Position numbers and translations under genes: made by a program. Positions 17,672-36,036 of a DNA stretch of 64,000 nt are shown piece after piece (position 1 is the stretch's first letter; every line of letters starts with the position of its first letter). The stretch is from Pseudomonadota bacterium (GTDB lineage: Bacteria; Desulfobacterota; SM23-61): positions 1 through 64,000 of the forward strand of contig JAHJQK010000060.1 in the NCBI GenBank assembly GCA_018819135.1. Direction: 5' to 3'. The notes under the pieces are model-generated. The model made no database searches. It was not told the origin of the DNA and was given only the letters and a program-made list of their open reading frames with translations.

Positions 17672-18697
17672 CTACGGTGGAAGCAAAATTCCTTTGGGCC
17701 AATGGGGAGAAACCAGAACGCTGCCTCCTCGATCGACGATGATCGCGTGGACGTCGTTCATTCGTTTGAGCAGCGCTAGGCCTTTGGGGGGCCCCAGGAC
17801 AAATACAGCCGTGGCCAGGGCATCCGCAGCCATCGCTGAGGGGGCCATGACCGTGACGCTCTGACATTCCCTTGCCGGAGTCCCCGTGGAAGGATTTAAG
17901 AGATGATGGTAGCGTTCTCCCTCTTTCATAAAAAATCTCTCATAATCCCCCGATGTGGCCACTCCCGCCTGCCGGGGACTGAGCTTGGCGATCATTGTGG
18001 AGGAGAGACGGGGATGCTGGATTCCGACCGTCCAGGGTAACCCTTTTTCCTTTGAACCATTGACTTTTAGGTCTCCTCAGGCATTGACGAGGAAATTATC
18101 AATTCCTTTTTTCTGCAGGACGTCAGAGGCCCGGTCTACGGCATATCCTTTGCCAATGGCTCCCAGGTCTATTTCCATCCCCTGCTCTTGGAAAAAGATA
18201 GAAGACCGGATGCGGTCAATTTTGATTTGGCGATAGTCTACTTTCTTCAAATTTTCCCGTAGATCTTTTTCTTCCGGAAACTTTCCCTCCCGAAAATTCC
18301 AGAGTCGAAAAACAGGGCCGATGGTGATGTCCAAAGCTCCCGCGGAAAGGGAGGAAATGTCGAGAACCTGCTGGATTACCCTTAATATTTCCGGAGAAAC
18401 TTTTGTTTCTTTTTTCCCGGCATTCCGGTTGACCCGAGAAATTTCGCTGTCTTCCCGGTAATTGCTCATAAGGAAGTCAATATGCTGCACTTCCCGAAAC
18501 GCAGCTTCCATTGCTTCCTCAGCTTTTACCGCCCGGGTCCGGGAGACAACAATTTCCACCGACGTTCCCATGATCACTCGGGATTTACGGAATAAGTTCT
18601 TTTCTTGGCTGGAAGCGTCACCGGGGAAAGCCAGGGGCGAAAGGAGACTGATTATAAGAAGAATTGTTGGTGGTGAGCTTCGGATTAAAGATTTCAT
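17672..18697 (-). pseudogene. apbE: ApbE FAD:protein FMN transferase with an in-frame TGA
   Basis: Periplasmic enzyme that attaches FMN covalently to Thr of Rnf/Nqr-type subunits. One continuous frame of 341 codons is broken only by TGA at 18077-18079 (minus strand). Upstream part: signal peptide MKSLIRSSPPT...ASSQE, MGTSVEIVV, MSNYREDSEISRVN, GALDITIGPVFRLW, IDLGAIGKGYAVDR, then FLVNA. The TGA falls on the first Gly of the conserved GGD that follows; GDLKVNGSKEKGLPWTVGI and the FMN-binding end (SGDYERFF, HHLLNPSTGTPA, ADALATAVFVLG) follow in the same frame. A GGA-to-TGA point mutation explains it. No convincing SECIS hairpin follows and the position is never catalytic, so selenocysteine is unlikely. 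Truncation at residue 206 removes the C-terminal catalytic part. Confidence 0.82.
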
Positions 18698-21471: not shown

Positions 21472-21500
21472 TTGACAAAAAAATTTGATCACATTAAATA
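21472..21500 (+). promoter_or_regulatory. Promoter candidate for the lipoate ligase/AcsE-like operon
   Basis: TTGACA at 21472-21477, 17 bp of A/T-rich spacer, TAAATA at 21495-21500. It lies about 70 bp before the chosen start of the ligase gene and back-to-back with the glgP promoter candidate. Confidence 0.45.
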
Positions 21501-21568
21501 TCACTCATTACTCGGCCTTCCGGAACAGATATTCATTACCCAGCTTCCTCTTAGGCCACGGAGGTTTT

Positions 21569-22687
21569 ATGATGCGGCAAGAATGGAGATTTCTGGATTT
21601 GAAGCTATCCAGCTATGCCCGAGCCTCTCTGTACATGCCGACGGTATTAACCCTCAGGGAAAGAGGGAAAATTCCCAATACTCTTGCCGCCATCAGCTTC
21701 GAGAAACCCGCCGCCTGTCTTTTCTATTATAACGATCCTGACCGGGAGATCGATCTGCCTTTCTGTCGGGATCAGGGCATCGAGGTGGCTCGCCGGGATA
21801 CAGGTGGGGCTCCTTACTGGATGGACCCCGGAACTTTAATGTTGGTCTTATGTTTCAACCAGCAGGATGTTCCCGGCTTCCCGGAAACGCTCCCGGAAGC
21901 ATACCGTTTTATAATCGAAGCCTCCGCCGGTTCTCTATCCCGCAGATTTTCCATTCCGGCCGTTTTCCGGCCTCTGAACGATCTTGAGGTCCAAGGGAGG
22001 AAAATCGCCGGACATACCTTGACCTTCCAGGGAAAAACCTGCCGCTGGGGAGCGGGTCCGCAGATTCTCCGACCAAGAATGGATCTAATGAGTAAGGCTT
22101 TAAAGCCTTTGCCCGAGAAATTTGCGGACAAAGAGGCCAAGACCATAGAAGCGCGGGTGACCAGCCTGGAAGACCTCCTGGGTTATCCCCCCTCTTGGGA
22201 AGAAGTAAAACAAACCTATATTGCTGGTCTGGAGGAACGATTGAGAGTGATTTTCCGACCCAGCGAGTTAAGCGAGGAAGAAAGAGCCATGATGGCGGAA
22301 AGGGAGAGAAAAGATTTTTCCGAAGAGTGGATCATGGCCATGAGCGAAAAGAGAAAATTTGGGCCTGTGCCTGAAGAGGTTAAGAGAGGCGAATATGCGG
22401 TTAAGGTTCCCCAGGGGCCCTTGATTCGCGCGGTGGTTTTGATGGCCGGCAATAAGATTTTCAATCTTTTATTGAGCGGATCCATCCATTGCCTTCCGGT
22501 CGTAATTGTGGAAGAAATGGAAGTTGCGCTCAAAGGGATGCCAGGGGATGAAAAGGAAATAGGGAAAGTGGTGCATTCTTTTTTCCAGAAACCTCAGGTT
22601 CAGGTTGCCGGCGCCACCCCCGCGGATTTCATCAGGACGATCATGGGGGCAATTGAAAAGGCAGAAGAGAAAGCATTTAGGGGTTAA
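21569..22687 (+). CDS. Lipoate-protein ligase A family protein with C-terminal extension
   Basis: The start is ATG 21569 with GGAGG five bases upstream; the 28 codons before it have no RBS. 372 aa. Residues ~1-220 are the biotin/lipoate-ligase fold: RRDTGGAPYWMDPGTL corresponds to the RR-S/T-GG-x-x-Y-x-D-x-G-N-L lipoyl-AMP site, and GRKIAGHTLTFQ holds the catalytic Lys. The C-terminal ~150 residues (two blocks: a charged helix and PQGPLIRAVVLMAGNKIFNLLLSG) resemble the LplA C-domain, where lipoate adenylation is assisted. It should charge lipoyl domains such as glycine cleavage H protein or 2-oxoacid dehydrogenase; none is in the window. Twelve bp before the AcsE-like gene, so C1 metabolism via glycine cleavage is a possible link. 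Confidence 0.82.
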   Translation: MMRQEWRFLDLKLSSYARASLYMPTVLTLRERGKIPNTLAAISFEKPAACLFYYNDPDREIDLPFCRDQGIEVARRDTGGAPYWMDPGTLMLVLCFNQQDVPGFPETLPEAYRFIIEASAGSLSRRFSIPAVFRPLNDLEVQGRKIAGHTLTFQGKTCRWGAGPQILRPRMDLMSKALKPLPEKFADKEAKTIEARVTSLEDLLGYPPSWEEVKQTYIAGLEERLRVIFRPSELSEEERAMMAERERKDFSEEWIMAMSEKRKFGPVPEEVKRGEYAVKVPQGPLIRAVVLMAGNKIFNLLLSGSIHCLPVVIVEEMEVALKGMPGDEKEIGKVVHSFFQKPQVQVAGATPADFIRTIMGAIEKAEEKAFRG

Positions 22688-22699
22688 AAGGAGCAGTAG

Positions 22700-23497
22700 A
22701 TGCTAATTGTTGGGGAGAGGATAAACACCAGTCGGAAAGCGGTCAATGAAGCGGTGGGAAAACGCGACGCGGCTTTCATAGCGGCAGATGTCCAGATGCA
22801 GGTCAAAGCCGGCGCAGATTATATTGATGTCAACGCCGGGTCCCGGATTGCCAGCGAGATGGAAGATATGAAATGGCTGGTCGAGATCATTGAAGCAGCA
22901 GTGGATGTTCCCCTCGCCCTGGACAGTCCCGACCCAAAAATCCTGCAGGCCGTGGCCCCCCAGGTAAAGAAAAGGCCGATGATTAACTCCACGACGGCGG
23001 AGTCAAACCGATTTGAGGCTATGAAGGCAGTCGTTCACGAGAGGGAGTGTGATATTGTGGCCCTCTGTTTGGATGACCGGGGCATCCCCAAAACCGTGGA
23101 TGAGGCTTTGCGCAATGCCTCCTTGCTGGTGCAAGGTTTGACCCAACTGGGAATGCCCCTCGAGAGAATACACCTCGACCCGATGATCCAGCCGGTTGGC
23201 GTGAACAAAGACAATGGAATTTTGGCCGTGGAAACCATCCGCAGCCTGCACCGGGAGTTTCCGGGGATACGGACGATCTGCGGCCTTTCCAACGTTTCTT
23301 TCGGGCTACCCAATCGGTTTTTAGTGAATAGACTCTTCCTGGTCCTTTGCATCGGAGCCGGGCTTACCGGGGCCATCGTGGATCCTCTGGACCAGAAAAT
23401 GATGACGAACATTCTGGTGGCGGAAACCCTGGCCGGGAGGGATGATTACTGCCTGAAATATTTAAGAGCCAATCGAGCCGGAACTCTCCTGGGGTAA
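22700..23497 (+). CDS. AcsE-like methyltetrahydrofolate:corrinoid methyltransferase
   Basis: 265-aa pteridine-binding TIM barrel, the size of AcsE/MeTr. Conserved features: MLIVGERINTSRKAV, DYIDVNAGS near 49, ALDSPDPKILQAV, MINSTTAE, HLDPMIQPVGVN, and CGLSNVSFGLPNR with the Asn that positions the N5 methyl. Members move a methyl group between CH3-tetrahydrofolate and a corrinoid protein; they serve the Wood-Ljungdahl CFeSP or act as methyltransferase II of O-/N-demethylase systems. No CFeSP gene is in the window, but a UroD-type methyltransferase and corrinoid protein lie at 34.1-36.0 kb. RBS AAAGGAG upstream. Confidence 0.85.
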   Translation: MLIVGERINTSRKAVNEAVGKRDAAFIAADVQMQVKAGADYIDVNAGSRIASEMEDMKWLVEIIEAAVDVPLALDSPDPKILQAVAPQVKKRPMINSTTAESNRFEAMKAVVHERECDIVALCLDDRGIPKTVDEALRNASLLVQGLTQLGMPLERIHLDPMIQPVGVNKDNGILAVETIRSLHREFPGIRTICGLSNVSFGLPNRFLVNRLFLVLCIGAGLTGAIVDPLDQKMMTNILVAETLAGRDDYCLKYLRANRAGTLLG

Positions 23498-23512: not shown

Positions 23513-24220
23513 ATGGGATTAGGAGCTTTAAATTTTTCAGCCGGAATAATTTTATTAGTTCTTCTAATCTGGACAGCAATAAGAGGCCTGAATGGAGGTC
23601 CGGGAGATGTTTTTACCGGCCTGGCAGGAGCCATCTTACTGCTGGCCGCCTTTCTTTATTTTATCTTCAGGCGCTTCGGGATTTTTTCCATTTCCAAAGG
23701 CTTGCTGGCCGATCTTCATATTCTCCTGGGCTCGGCAGGGGTGGGCTTGATTGTAGTCCATTCCGGCGGAGTTTTTTTAAGTTTCCCAGGTCTTTTGACT
23801 ATTGCCCTCACCTTGCTCTTTCTCCTGGGTCTTAACCTGCGCTTCTTCTCCAGCCGGCAAATCCATCGGAATTTTGCATCCAGGCCCCACCTTTTTTTTC
23901 AATCTCCGCCAACAACTATTAAACTGGAGTCTATTCTTGAGGCTAAGAAAGCCTTACTTAAGAAGATCAATTCCCAAGCCTATGAAGGAACTTTTAGGTT
24001 GGGTTTTAAAGATTGGGTGTCCAGTCCAGGGAAGGCAGGTCGTTATTGGCGGCTGAACCGGGAAGAAAAAAAAGGGGTTAGAGAAGCTTGCGGGAATTCT
24101 CCCGGATACCTGGGATTCAGTCTGGGCTGGGGGCGCTACCTGCACATTTTATTGGGAATAGGGGCGGTAATTGGCTTCCTTTTCCATCTCATCCAATCTT
24201 GCCCATTTTTGGTTTTTTAG
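23513..24220 (+). CDS. Membrane protein with two H-x13-H helices, putative b-type di-heme cytochrome
   Basis: 235 aa, not assigned to a known family by eye. About six hydrophobic segments: 9-22, 33-54, 70-90, 92-112, then a ~95-residue soluble stretch rich in Lys/Arg/Ser, and a last helix 208-230. Two helices carry the same pattern, LHILLG-x8-H: His69/His83 and His211/His225. Each pair is separated by 13 residues, which is the spacing that stacks two hemes between two helices in cytochrome b and related quinone-reactive subunits. From this I infer a di-heme, quinone-linked membrane anchor. It lies 15 bp after the AcsE-like gene and 142 bp before a large molybdoenzyme that lacks an anchor, which makes it the natural partner. 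Confidence 0.6.
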   Translation: MGLGALNFSAGIILLVLLIWTAIRGLNGGPGDVFTGLAGAILLLAAFLYFIFRRFGIFSISKGLLADLHILLGSAGVGLIVVHSGGVFLSFPGLLTIALTLLFLLGLNLRFFSSRQIHRNFASRPHLFFQSPPTTIKLESILEAKKALLKKINSQAYEGTFRLGFKDWVSSPGKAGRYWRLNREEKKGVREACGNSPGYLGFSLGWGRYLHILLGIGAVIGFLFHLIQSCPFLVF

Positions 24221-24350
24221 CCACAGAGCACACAGAGGTCACAGAGATTAGCATGGCAAAATTAAAACAAATAAAGTCAAAGGAAAAAAGTTTTAATCTG
24301 TTTATTATGTACCTTATTTTTAACTCGGTGTTCTCGGTGAACTCTGTGGC
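24220..24350. repeat. 131-bp inverted-repeat element with 9-mer modules
   Basis: The ends are GCCACAGAG (24220-24228) and its reverse complement CTCTGTGGC (24342-24350). Each arm continues as three 9-mers of the type NNCACMGAG: left GCCACAGAG, CACACAGAG, GTCACAGAG; right (reversed) GCCACAGAG, TTCACCGAG, AACACCGAG. The interior is A/T-rich. It ends 12 bp before the molybdoenzyme start, so the folded arm could affect translation there. It looks like a dispersed non-coding element. Confidence 0.65.
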
Positions 24351-24362
24351 AGAGATTCCTTT

Positions 24363-27296
24363 ATGAAACAACTATCTTTAATGTTCGATTCCGAACGGTG
24401 CACGGGCTGTTTAACCTGCGTGACTGCCTGCAAGTTAATCCACCGGTTAAAATGGCGCCAGAATCGAAATCACATCTTCTGGGCTTATAATGGGGGCTCG
24501 GGGAAATTGGAATTTACCCATAAAGTCTGCCAACAATGTGAGCGGCCGGCTTGCGTCCGGGCCTGCGGGACAAATCCCAAGGCGCTTGCCAAGCGAGAGA
24601 TGGATGGAATCGTCGTCGTCGATAAAGCAACCTGTACGGGATGTCAGAGTTGTGTAAAAGCTTGCCCTTATGGGGTCATGGGTTTTGACTACCGGAGAAA
24701 CGTGGCGGACAAATGTGATTTGTGCGTTGAATTCCCTGAAATGGGTCCAAACTGCGTACGCCATTGCGTCGGTTTTGCCCTTACCTGCGGCGTTAAGGAA
24801 GAACTACAGGAGCAAGCCCGCAAGGGTGGCCGCAAGGTGAGAAATTTGGATCATGCCGGGCAGAACCCTTCGTTGATCTACCTGGAACCTCTTAAGGCCA
24901 ATAGCCAAAAGGGGAAGATGGAGGTTATTCCTTATCCCCGCCTGTCGAAGAGCTGGGTTTCCATGTTGACATCAGAACTCAGCTTCGCTTTCAAGGATAG
25001 TCTCATGCCTAACCAAGGGCTGGAGGATTATCCCTTCAACCAAGAGGTTCCTCCTTTTGGGGCCGATGAAGTGCTCTTGGGGGGTTGCAGCATGTGCTTC
25101 AACGCCTGCTCCGCCCTTTTTTATATTAAAGACGGGAAAGTGATCAACATCACCGGCAATCCCAACGATCCCACAACCCGGGGGAGGCTGTGTTCGAAAG
25201 GACTTAACCACGTCCTCATGTATAACAGCCGCCATCGTTTGACCAAAGCGCTGAAGAGAATCGGAAATAGGGGAGGTGGGAAGTACGTCGAAATCAACTA
25301 TGATGAAGCCATGGCAGAATTCGCGGGCAAGTTGAAGAAGATTCGAGATCATTATGGACCGGAAAGTTTGGGGATTTACACTCCCACCCGCTCAGGCTAT
25401 CTGCAACAAAGGGGAATGGCCCCGTTCTTTGCCCAAGCATTCGGCACGCCCAACTTTGCCGGATCCGCTCCCCTTTGCGACACGGCCCTGGACATCGCCT
25501 TTTCCATTTTTCAGGGCGGCAGATCAGGCAATTCCTATTTGGAAGACGATCTCGGTTCGACAACCTTTTATCTCATAGTCGGCGAAAACATGGCCGAAAC
25601 CAGGCCGGTGAATTTTGGGTTGATCAATGACTGCCGGCTGAAAAACGGCGCCAGGATGGTGGTGATTGATCCGCGGCAGACCGTAACCGCCGCCAAAGCC
25701 GATGAATGGTTGCCCATAAGGCCGGGCACGGATATGGCCCTGGCCTTGGCCATGGCTTACCATATCATTTCAAGAGATCTGATTAATAAAGGCTTCATTG
25801 AAAAATGGGTGGAAGGGTTTGCCCAAGTCAGGGATTTCATCCTCGCAAAGAAATACACTCCGGAGTGGGCCGAACCTATAACCGATATTCCCGCCGAAAA
25901 AATCAAAAAATTGGCCGAGGAATTCGCCCGGGCGGAAAGAGCTACCATTTTTGCCAGCAGAGGATTGGCCCAGCATTCTAACGGGGTGCAGACCATAAGG
26001 GCCTTTATGATCCTTTCAGCCATAACCGGCCACTGGGGAAAAAAAGGGGTCACTTTCCAGATGTCTTCAAGCGGAAAGATGTTGGGGACCAGCCTTTCCG
26101 AGGCGGATCTGGGAAAGATCAAGCCAGGGCTGAGCAAGTCGCCCATCGGCTGGATGGAGTCTATTGGCACTGGGAAGCCCTATCCGATCAAAACCATCAT
26201 CTGGGCCGGGAACCCTTTTGGGTTATGGCCGGGATTATCGCGGCTAAAAGAAGGATTGAAGAATGTCGAACTCATCGCCCACCTGGAAATCTGGAGAAAC
26301 GATACGTCCTATGTTTCCGATTATGTTTTTCCATCGGCTCATGGTGTGGAGTATGGAGAAATCAATCGCAGCACGGAGGACCGCCGAGCCCTCTGGATTC
26401 GCCAGATGATCGAACCGCCTGGGGACGCCCGACCGGATCTCTATTTCTGGATTGAGCTCGGAAAAAGATTGGGGCTGCCGGAAATTCTGAAGGAGGGATA
26501 CAAGGATTCGTCGGTTTTTTTCGATGCCGAGATGAGGGCCAGCTTTTTGGTCAAAGGGGTAACGGTAAAAAGGATGACGGAAAGCGAGAAGGGATTTTTG
26601 CGCATGCCTCTGCTGGATGAAAGATCAGAGGAAATTGATACCCTTTACCTGGAAGGCTCGATTTATCCCGGCGATAAGCAGGGGAGAAGGATTCCCACTC
26701 CGTCGGGCAAGCTGGAACTTTGGACCGAAGAGCTGGAAAAGAAATTCAATGAACTCGGTCTGACGGCCTTGCCGGAATTTTATTCGGAACCCGAGCAGTT
26801 GATTGACCTGCCTTATTTAAGCCAAGATTCGGCTGACCCAGACCGGCGACCTTCCCCATTCTGGAATTACTCCTGCTATGCGCCTGTGGTTAAAATTTCA
26901 AAAGAGCCCAAACCCCCAAGAGAAGATTTCGATACCGAATTGATAACCGCCTGTCCACCCGTTCCCCACTTTCACTCCTGGGGCAATTTTTTCTGGCAGG
27001 CCTGGGAGATGTGGCCCGATCTTTTCGTGCACCTGCATCCGGCCAAAGCGCGGTCCATCGGCGTACAGACAGGCGATAGGGTCATCGTAGAAAATCAGCG
27101 GGGAAGAATCGAGGCCGTGGCTTGGATTCATCCCGGAATCCGGGAGAGCGCCGTATACATTCCCATCGGCTGGGGAGAAAGATCTCCCTATTCGCAGTGG
27201 AAGAGCGTCAACTGGCTGCTTCCCGATGACCAACGAGATCCCGTCTCCGACCAAGCGAACACCAAGATTACTCTCTGCCGCGTGAGGAAAGCCTGA
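24363..27296 (+). CDS. Molybdopterin oxidoreductase fused to a four-cluster ferredoxin
   Basis: 977 aa. Residues 1-~195 are a DmsB/PsrB/NrfC-type ferredoxin with four Cys sets: CTGCLTCVTAC, CQQCERPACVRAC, CTGCQSCVKACPYG and CDLC...CVRHC. Residues ~235-970 are a DMSO-reductase-family catalytic subunit: CSMCFNACSALF + CSKG near 285 bind the FS0 cluster, APLCDTA near 371 supplies the likely Mo/W-ligand Cys as in thiosulfate/polysulfide reductases, and the C-terminal molybdopterin domain (VHLHPAKARSIG, GWGERSPYSQW) is complete. In relatives the two parts are separate proteins. There is no Tat signal, so it should work in the cytoplasm. The substrate cannot be told. The membrane anchor of such complexes is missing here, but the preceding gene encodes a putative di-heme membrane protein. 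Confidence 0.87.
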   Translation: MKQLSLMFDSERCTGCLTCVTACKLIHRLKWRQNRNHIFWAYNGGSGKLEFTHKVCQQCERPACVRACGTNPKALAKREMDGIVVVDKATCTGCQSCVKACPYGVMGFDYRRNVADKCDLCVEFPEMGPNCVRHCVGFALTCGVKEELQEQARKGGRKVRNLDHAGQNPSLIYLEPLKANSQKGKMEVIPYPRLSKSWVSMLTSELSFAFKDSLMPNQGLEDYPFNQEVPPFGADEVLLGGCSMCFNACSALFYIKDGKVINITGNPNDPTTRGRLCSKGLNHVLMYNSRHRLTKALKRIGNRGGGKYVEINYDEAMAEFAGKLKKIRDHYGPESLGIYTPTRSGYLQQRGMAPFFAQAFGTPNFAGSAPLCDTALDIAFSIFQGGRSGNSYLEDDLGSTTFYLIVGENMAETRPVNFGLINDCRLKNGARMVVIDPRQTVTAAKADEWLPIRPGTDMALALAMAYHIISRDLINKGFIEKWVEGFAQVRDFILAKKYTPEWAEPITDIPAEKIKKLAEEFARAERATIFASRGLAQHSNGVQTIRAFMILSAITGHWGKKGVTFQMSSSGKMLGTSLSEADLGKIKPGLSKSPIGWMESIGTGKPYPIKTIIWAGNPFGLWPGLSRLKEGLKNVELIAHLEIWRNDTSYVSDYVFPSAHGVEYGEINRSTEDRRALWIRQMIEPPGDARPDLYFWIELGKRLGLPEILKEGYKDSSVFFDAEMRASFLVKGVTVKRMTESEKGFLRMPLLDERSEEIDTLYLEGSIYPGDKQGRRIPTPSGKLELWTEELEKKFNELGLTALPEFYSEPEQLIDLPYLSQDSADPDRRPSPFWNYSCYAPVVKISKEPKPPREDFDTELITACPPVPHFHSWGNFFWQAWEMWPDLFVHLHPAKARSIGVQTGDRVIVENQRGRIEAVAWIHPGIRESAVYIPIGWGERSPYSQWKSVNWLLPDDQRDPVSDQANTKITLCRVRKA

Positions 27297-34142: not shown

Positions 34143-35351
34143 ATGACGCCTAAAGAACGAATGCTGAAAGCTGCCCGCGGTGAATGGGCCGACTTCCTTC
34201 CTTGGGCTCCGCGGATTGACCTCTGGTACAACGCCAATTCCCTGCCAGGAACCCTTCCGGCCAAATATCGAAGAGGAGTGACCCTCGATGAGATTGCCGA
34301 TGATATCGGAGGTGGCTATCACAAGATTGTACCCGATTTTTTAAACGCCCGATCTCCAGAGGATACGATTGACCGTGGTTTGGGTATCTTTCGGCTCAAG
34401 GGTATGCCCTATCGGGCCGAGTTGGCCGGGGTAGAAAGGGAAGTTAAAAAAGAAGGAAATACAACCTTCGTGACCTATCATACCCCCCTCGGGTCGATCT
34501 CGTGTGAAATCCTTTATACCGAAGAGATGAGGCGGGCTGGAGTTTCGATCACCTGGATCTCGGAGCATGTCATTAAAGATCCCAAGGATTATAAAATCGT
34601 GGGTTATATCTTTAAAAATATAAAGGTGATCCCCGATTATGAGAACTACCTGGAATTTCAGAGGCAGGTGGGAGATAAAGGATTTGCTGCCGCCCGGGGT
34701 TTGGCTGCGGCCGGCCCCATGCACCAAATTATGAGAGATTTTCTGGATGCTACTCAGTTTTACCTTGAAATGTACGATCATCCCCAAGAGATGCGCCGGC
34801 TCTGTGAAGACCTGGAGCCTTATTATGATCAGCTTTTTCGGGTCCTGGCCAACTCCCCGGCAGAAGTGGTTTTCCATGGAAGCAATTTCGACGAGATGAT
34901 TACCTATCCACCGTTTTTTCGTGATTATATTATGCCCTACCTGCAAAGATTGGCCGATATGCTTCACCCGCGCGGAAAACTGCTGATTTGCCATTGCGAT
35001 GGAGAAAATAAAGGTCTGCTTGAACTCATCGCTGAAAGTGGAATGGACATTGCAGAGGCGATCTGTCCTCAACCCATGACCAAAGTCACCATCAGCGAAG
35101 TAAAAAAGGCCTTCAAGGGAAAGGTTACCATTTTCGGGGGAGTCCCCTCGGTAGCCCTTCTGGAACAGAGCATGTCCGATGAGCAATTTGAACGTTTCAT
35201 GGAGAATTTATTCCGGGAGATTGTTCCAGGAGATCGATTTATTCTGGGAATAAGCGATACCACGCCGCCGGATGCTAAGTTCGAGAGGTTATCCCGGATT
35301 ACGGAGATAGTGCAGGAGTGGGGAAAGTTGCCGATGAAAATGCCAAGATAG
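34143..35351 (+). CDS. UroD-superfamily corrinoid methyltransferase (MtaA/MtvB-like)
   Basis: 402 aa. The fold and start MTPKERMLKAARGEWADFLPWAPRIDLWYN match the uroporphyrinogen decarboxylase/methyltransferase superfamily, and the HCDGENKG motif near 285 holds His and Cys ligands for the zinc that activates the methyl donor (with an additional Cys likely in EAICPQP near 315). True HemE lacks this motif. It is followed 46 bp later by a corrinoid protein with the DLHDIG cobalamin motif, the usual methyltransferase I/corrinoid pair. The substrate (methoxyaryl, methylamine, betaine, methylthiol) is not readable. RBS AGAGGGAATA. Confidence 0.85.
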   Translation: MTPKERMLKAARGEWADFLPWAPRIDLWYNANSLPGTLPAKYRRGVTLDEIADDIGGGYHKIVPDFLNARSPEDTIDRGLGIFRLKGMPYRAELAGVEREVKKEGNTTFVTYHTPLGSISCEILYTEEMRRAGVSITWISEHVIKDPKDYKIVGYIFKNIKVIPDYENYLEFQRQVGDKGFAAARGLAAAGPMHQIMRDFLDATQFYLEMYDHPQEMRRLCEDLEPYYDQLFRVLANSPAEVVFHGSNFDEMITYPPFFRDYIMPYLQRLADMLHPRGKLLICHCDGENKGLLELIAESGMDIAEAICPQPMTKVTISEVKKAFKGKVTIFGGVPSVALLEQSMSDEQFERFMENLFREIVPGDRFILGISDTTPPDAKFERLSRITEIVQEWGKLPMKMPR

Positions 35352-35397
35352 CAAAGCGAGAAAAGCGTGAAAAAAAGAAAAAATAAAAGGAGGAGAA

Positions 35398-36036
35398 ATG
35401 GTCAGTCAGGAAAAGTTTTACCAGGCACTTGCCGCCGGGAAAATGGATGAGGTGAAAGATTTGATTCAGAACGCTTTGGACAGAGGGGAATCGCCGGAGA
35501 GCATTTTGAAAGAAGGGCTAATCAAAGCGATGGATCAGATTGGAGTCAGATTTAAGAACAATGAAATTTACATCCCCGAGGTGCTCATTGCCGCCCGGGC
35601 CATGCATGCGGGGCTGGGGGTTTTGAAACCCATCTTGGCCAAATCTACGACCTCTGCCTCGGTAAAAATTGTTTTAGGAACGATGAAAGGGGATTTACAC
35701 GACATCGGAAAGAACCTGGTAGCGATGATGATGGAAGGAGCAGGGTTCGAGGTGATTGACCTTGGCATCGATGTGCCTTCCGAGAAGTTTATTCAAGCCG
35801 CCAAGGAACATGGGGCGCATGCGATTGGGATGTCAGCATTGCTTACCACTACCATGTTGCAGATGAAGGCGACTATTGAGATGATCAAGTCTGCAGGGTT
35901 AGGTGATGGCATCAAGACCTTGGTAGGGGGAGCGCCGGTGACGTTGGAGTTTGCCCAGAAGATTGGGGCGGATGGGTATGCCGCCGATGCAGCATCGGCC
36001 GTGGGAAAGGTCAAAGAGCTTCTGGGTTTGAGTTAA
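35398..36036 (+). CDS. Cobalamin-binding corrinoid protein (MtbC/MtvC-type)
   Basis: 212 aa, typical for methanol/methylamine/veratrol corrinoid proteins. N-terminal helical cap (residues 1-~85) then a Rossmann-like B12 domain with GTMKGDLHDIGKNLVAMM (the DxHxxG His that ligates cobalt), GFEVIDLGIDVP, SALLTTTM and VGGAPVTLEFA. It carries the methyl group between the preceding methyltransferase and a tetrahydrofolate acceptor such as the AcsE-like protein at 22.7 kb. Excellent RBS AAAGGAGGAG. Reactivating RamA-type proteins are not in the window. Confidence 0.92.
   Translation: MVSQEKFYQALAAGKMDEVKDLIQNALDRGESPESILKEGLIKAMDQIGVRFKNNEIYIPEVLIAARAMHAGLGVLKPILAKSTTSASVKIVLGTMKGDLHDIGKNLVAMMMEGAGFEVIDLGIDVPSEKFIQAAKEHGAHAIGMSALLTTTMLQMKATIEMIKSAGLGDGIKTLVGGAPVTLEFAQKIGADGYAADAASAVGKVKELLGLS

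Follow-up and report, generated by a model that had tools for sequence, protein, structure and literature searches.

A putative di-heme b cytochrome beside a fused ferredoxin-molybdoenzyme: a possible quinone-linked pair in a Desulfobacterota genome

Histidine pairs with the spacing H-x12/14-H in transmembrane helices 3 and 5 form the published layout of the ferric reductase, NOX and MsrQ proteins, of which MsrQ serves a molybdenum enzyme, the periplasmic MsrP (PMC5676040). The DUF4405 proteins have four central histidines and have been purified with heme b (PMC11334425). Here we describe a gene pair in a 64,000-nucleotide stretch of DNA (the window; positions 1 to 64,000 of contig JAHJQK010000060.1, assembly GCA_018819135.1) from a bacterium of the Desulfobacterota lineage SM23-61. 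The source is a draft genome (G000) of 4.4 Mb, 94% complete and with 8.5% contamination, where the window lies on contig C30. The first gene (23513..24220, + strand) encodes a 235-residue putative di-heme b cytochrome and the second (24363..27296, + strand) a 977-residue molybdoenzyme predicted to be cytosolic; both are intact open reading frames (ORFs). We propose that the five-helix cytochrome could be the membrane partner of the downstream enzyme and link it to quinone, a reading whose prospects we consider about evenly balanced.

Two H-x13-H pairs and no further ones were found in the 235-residue protein, at His69/His83 (codons at 23717 and 23759) and His211/His225 (codons at 24143 and 24185), exactly where an earlier note on this DNA had placed them. 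The helix motif which that note saw twice is indeed repeated, with nine residues rather than the stated eight before the second histidine (LHILLG-x9-H), and it is this spacer that gives H-x13-H. Hydropathy predicted five membrane segments, the third and fifth of which hold the pairs. The loops that follow helices 2 and 4 carry positive charge, from which we infer an N-in/C-out topology. This would place loop 4, which is highly basic and 94 residues long, on the cytoplasmic side, as a possible docking site for a partner in the cytosol.

A close ortholog was found among 99 relatives and 395 genomes of the phylum only in a congener of the window species (G002), with 54% identity and all four histidines retained. 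Substitutions between the two genes were 0.22, 0.37 and 0.55 at codon positions 2, 1 and 3 respectively, the pattern of a coding gene under constraint. The profile built from this ortholog pair matched remote proteins at E values of 3e-7 to 5e-3, and the pair was aligned with seven remote relatives (loci L014-L019 and L023). The other members of this nine-sequence alignment are 15-54% identical to the window protein overall (15-25% for the seven remote relatives) and only eleven columns are invariant, all four histidines included. Homologs without the four histidines, which the earlier note named as a point that would speak against its proposal, were therefore not seen among the nine. Besides the histidines, G36, G39, Y49, R54, G106 and R110 are conserved between the window protein and the remote family. 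Because the four histidines are invariant in the ortholog and in all seven remote relatives, the pattern is not due to chance, and this conservation is a stronger argument than the finding that two H-x13-H pairs occur in 0.46% of shuffled sequences of equal composition.

The ortholog pair was compared with the seven remote relatives by HHalign, which gave 96% probability (E 2e-9) over 114 columns; comparisons using a reversed alignment reached at most 22%. On this profile evidence, the 235-residue protein belongs, as a divergent member, to an unnamed family of putative b cytochromes with two H-x13-H pairs. The invariant histidines together with the profile-profile match indicate a real conserved di-histidine family, which makes heme binding the natural reading. 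Di-heme binding, as proposed in the earlier note, is a well supported prediction in view of the invariant quartet, the electron-transfer partners beside the relatives and a layout like that of the ferric reductase domain (FRD) and DUF4405.

No Pfam or NCBIfam family was found for the protein at cut-off. The sole sub-threshold Pfam match was to DUF4405 (PF14358), at 16.5 bits against a gathering cut-off of 26.7 (19.5 bits for the ortholog). Sets of DUF4405, ferric-reductase and cytochrome b561 proteins were gathered from related genomes, and profile-profile comparison gave no full-length significance with these sets, the best of the three being DUF4405 at E 4e-4 over one helix only. For PF01794 (Ferric_reduct) there was no Pfam match up to E 10 and the profile-profile values of 0.002-0.013 were not significant, and for PF01292 (Ni_hydr_CYTB, the cytochrome b561/FdnI type) there was no Pfam match and a profile-profile E of 0.016. 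NarI (nitrate reductase gamma) also gave no Pfam match, nor did NrfD, PsrC or DmsC, in agreement with the earlier remark that these architectures differ from that of the window protein. The two H-x12/14-H pairs in helices 3 and 5 expected of a ferric reductase domain are present; six helices are expected as well, and hydropathy gives five, with which the helices of a low-confidence model agree. By analogy, the protein is one that appears to work like the FRD/NOX/MsrQ class and it is not assigned as a member. That layout is a nearer analogue than cytochrome b, which the earlier note had taken as its model (PMC5676040). Searches of PDB sequences with the protein and with the family profile gave chance matches only (envelope glycoprotein B and ATP synthase b), which were rejected.

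The neighbours of the remote relatives were also inspected. A multiheme cytochrome c with 5-11 CxxCH motifs adjoins six of the seven (of c3/c7 type in the two scanned by Pfam), and one relative adjoins an FAD/NAD/2Fe-2S (FNR-type) reductase. No molybdoenzyme like that of the window was found in any of the six larger loci examined. Given these neighbours, multiheme cytochromes c or FNR-type reductases, anchoring a molybdoenzyme is not the role of the family as a whole; the remote relatives occur without a molybdoenzyme, so the fold is a general electron-transfer module. As a family in its own right, the proteins of L014-L019 and L023 carry the H-x13-H pair twice and match no Pfam family above cut-off, and they probably represent a transmembrane electron-transfer module without a family name.

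The downstream gene was described in the earlier note as a molybdopterin enzyme with a built-in four-cluster ferredoxin, and its domain matches bear this out. Residues 1-151 (24363..24815, + strand) form a PsrB/DmsB/NrfC-like module that matches DmsB/NrfC/TtrB-type four-cluster ferredoxins, with 16 conserved cysteines in the corresponding spacing at residues 13-135. The catalytic region (residues 242-977; 25086..27293, + strand) starts with a proximal 4Fe-4S motif at 242-277, whose cysteines are residues 242, 245, 249 and 277. The Molybdopterin, Molydop_binding and Fe4S4 domains and the proximal cluster cysteines are those of the DMSO reductase superfamily, whose cofactor is bis-molybdopterin guanine dinucleotide (bis-MGD). 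The nearest solved structure to the catalytic region is 2vpw (E 5e-64), the thiosulfate/polysulfide reductase PsrA of Thermus, whose molybdenum ligand is Cys173; Cys372 of the window enzyme aligns with this residue and is the predicted ligand. The equivalog cut-off for PsrA/PhsA thiosulfate/polysulfide reductases was not reached (288 bits against 694). A formate dehydrogenase role was considered and is disfavoured because the ligand cysteine is followed by Asp373 and not by the histidine typical of those enzymes.

The enzyme has no twin-arginine translocation (Tat) signal, because just 13 codons fit in frame before the ATG, and on this ground it should be cytosolic. Hydropathy gave no convincing membrane helix, the one 19-residue segment that reaches 1.66 being in the cluster-binding region. 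No NrfD/PsrC/DmsC-type anchor gene was found beside the enzyme by a Pfam scan of the neighbours and reading of the other flanking ORFs, so that the earlier description of a molybdoenzyme without a membrane subunit holds. The full-length ferredoxin-molybdoenzyme fusion was found in the two congeners only among 148 and 395 genomes scanned. A contig scan with the enzyme gave one relative above 25% identity, on the congener's own contig, and a plasmid search gave no match. The nearest non-fused relatives are about 35-37% identical (those compared directly) and have an N-terminal twin-arginine motif; their surroundings showed neither a ferredoxin gene nor an anchor gene. Separately, we noticed that Tat-type single-subunit molybdoenzymes repeatedly adjoin a secreted-looking gene (L034 6024-9331, L092 6209-9394, L090, L093 and L094); tested at L034 only, it encodes a transglutaminase-like protein.

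Upstream of the pair lie a methyltetrahydrofolate:corrinoid methyltransferase gene (AcsE-like; 22700..23497, + strand), 15 nt before the cytochrome gene, and a lipoate-protein ligase-like gene (21485..22687, + strand), 12 nt before the methyltransferase gene. G002 has the genes for methyltransferase, cytochrome and molybdoenzyme in this same order. In the sister-genus genome G004, homoserine dehydrogenase (83%) and panB (89%), which in the window lie beyond the pair, come immediately after the methyltransferase gene (78%), with neither pair gene in between. The sister-genus genomes G005 and G007 likewise have the methyltransferase but not the pair (orthologs in G004, G005 and G007 at 73-78%), and neither pair gene was found in the other genus or family members scanned. 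Given the joint absence at the syntenic G004 site, the pair seems to have been gained or lost together. Conserved adjacency in two congeners and joint absence in the sister genus thus make a pairing of the two proteins plausible. At the same methyltransferase locus, G005 (L072 8961-12575) and G007 (L073 3311-6964) encode a fusion of 1205-1218 residues that joins a GltD-like FAD/NAD(P) module to a molybdopterin oxidoreductase; it is apparently cytosolic with a different electron input.

If the pair works together, two hemes would be stacked between helices 3 and 5, with His69 paired to His211 or His225 and conversely for His83. Electrons would pass between the membrane, most likely menaquinol, and the two hemes. 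From the hemes, the path would follow the four 4Fe-4S clusters of the ferredoxin module and then the proximal cluster as far as the metal site, or the flow would be in the reverse direction. This site would be a bis-pterin molybdenum or tungsten center with Cys372 as ligand, where a small substrate may be reduced or oxidised in the cytoplasm.

Several observations weigh against such a complex. Remote relatives of the cytochrome use partners other than molybdoenzymes. Just two congeneric genomes carry the pair, which therefore counts as one event and not as phylogenetically independent co-occurrence. The cytochrome is far more diverged between the window and G002 (54% identity) than the enzyme (81%), and the intergenic distance is 142 bp in the window and 597 bp in G002, in repeat-rich DNA. 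AlphaFold models of the cytochrome (pLDDT, the predicted local distance difference test, of 64) and of the enzyme (pLDDT 50) are weak and unusable for docking respectively, and the top Foldseek match of the weak cytochrome model, cytochrome b561 at E 0.08, is not significant. We infer the complex only, because repeat-rich DNA separates the genes and the predicted structures are too poor for docking. The two-component enzyme of the earlier note thus gains from adjacency in two congeners, where an ortholog with all four histidines precedes the same fused enzyme, and from joint absence in the sister genus, but this co-occurrence is confined to two genomes of one lineage, and the remote relatives lack a molybdoenzyme.

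The window spacer is largely a dispersed inverted-repeat element (24220..24350, no strand), resembling a miniature inverted-repeat transposable element, with 27-nt arms, and it overlaps the final base of the stop codon of the cytochrome gene. Its pattern has 244 matches in G000 (123 forward and 121 reverse) and the reversed control pattern none. The arms read GCCACAGAGNNCACAGAG, and many matches in the 4.4-Mb genome are convergent pairs about 100-250 bp apart. The G002 spacer, by reading only, holds a different repeat-like sequence.

The repeat-like sequence between the genes in both species also suits a lesser yet real possibility, that the two are mere neighbours. The cytochrome would then act with a flavoprotein, with a cytochrome c in the periplasm or with the quinone pool alone, and the molybdoenzyme would be fed by ferredoxin or another carrier. 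This might be expected from remote relatives whose partners are multiheme cytochromes c or an FNR-type reductase, never a molybdoenzyme, and from closest enzyme relatives that are single-subunit, Tat-exported and without an anchor nearby. However, the two genes are jointly present and jointly absent, also at the syntenic site, and in the window no multiheme cytochrome c or FNR-type reductase gene was recognised next to the pair. It is improbable that the cytochrome is a functional part of the lipoate ligase-methyltransferase operon upstream and the molybdoenzyme gene a separate unit: the spacings of 12 and 15 nt, compared with the 142 nt that precede the molybdoenzyme gene, would suit this, but the methyltransferase orthologs of G004, G005 and G007 occur without the cytochrome gene, and the G002 locus has no lipoate ligase and a gap of 186 nt between methyltransferase and cytochrome. 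That the histidines are coincidental in a heme-free membrane protein is very unlikely, since for all the lack of a family at cut-off and the weak structure model they are invariant in nine of nine members while most of the sequence varies, and the relatives adjoin redox proteins.

The proposed membrane pairing would, if true, mean that DMSO reductase-family enzymes, in addition to their known membrane attachments, can use a di-heme anchor with an FRD-like layout, here with the iron-sulfur wire and the catalytic part in a single chain. A cytochrome b family that has no name would also gain a function, and the case would illustrate how such membrane modules swap between partners. More tentatively, and at somewhat less than even prospects, the pair may represent a new cytosol-facing, quinone-linked type of molybdoenzyme whose di-heme anchor is unrelated to NrfD, NarI and FdnI and was recruited from a transmembrane cytochrome b family that normally serves multiheme cytochromes c. 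No title or abstract describing such a fused enzyme with such an anchor was found in the literature searches. The parts are of known kinds and the pairing looks unusual, so far seen in two related species only.

Promoter- and terminator-like sites occurred in numbers close to chance expectation. Elsewhere in the window, a uroporphyrinogen decarboxylase (URO-D)-type methyltransferase and a B12-binding corrinoid protein (34143-36033) are encoded some 10 kb downstream and may go together with the methyltransferase at 22700. The flavin transferase gene apbE (17675-18697, - strand) is split into two ORFs that cover profile positions 1-156 and 187-266; G002 has an apparently full-length apbE at the matching place, beside glgP.

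Among known systems, the ferric reductase superfamily (PF01794: MsrQ/YedZ, NOX and FRE) shares with the window protein the H-x12/14-H pairs in helices 3 and 5 and the transmembrane electron transfer proposed here, whereas the window protein has no Pfam match, five predicted helices instead of six and no FNR partner. MsrQ is the closest analogue in histidine layout, but its partner MsrP, of the sulfite oxidase family, is periplasmic and the window enzyme is predicted to be cytosolic. DUF4405 has the H-xxx-G-x9-H helix in common with the window protein at a sub-threshold match; the similarity spans one helix, and most of the DUF4405 proteins collected have a single H-x13-H pair. The unnamed family has the same helix layout and all four histidines but a loop between helices 4 and 5 that differs in length and sequence, and a multiheme cytochrome c neighbour in six of seven remote members where none was recognised near the window pair. 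The PsrABC/PhsABC complex iron-sulfur molybdoenzymes (CISM) have a PsrA-like catalytic domain with a cysteine ligand and a PsrB-like four-cluster ferredoxin; the window enzyme fuses both parts in one chain, with no Tat signal and no NrfD/PsrC-type anchor found. NarGHI differs in that the cytochrome has no NarI match and another histidine layout, and in that the window ligand aligns with cysteine, the molybdenum ligand of NarG being aspartate. In logic, however, NarGHI is the closest system, with cytosolic molybdenum catalysis fed through an iron-sulfur chain from a di-heme b membrane subunit.

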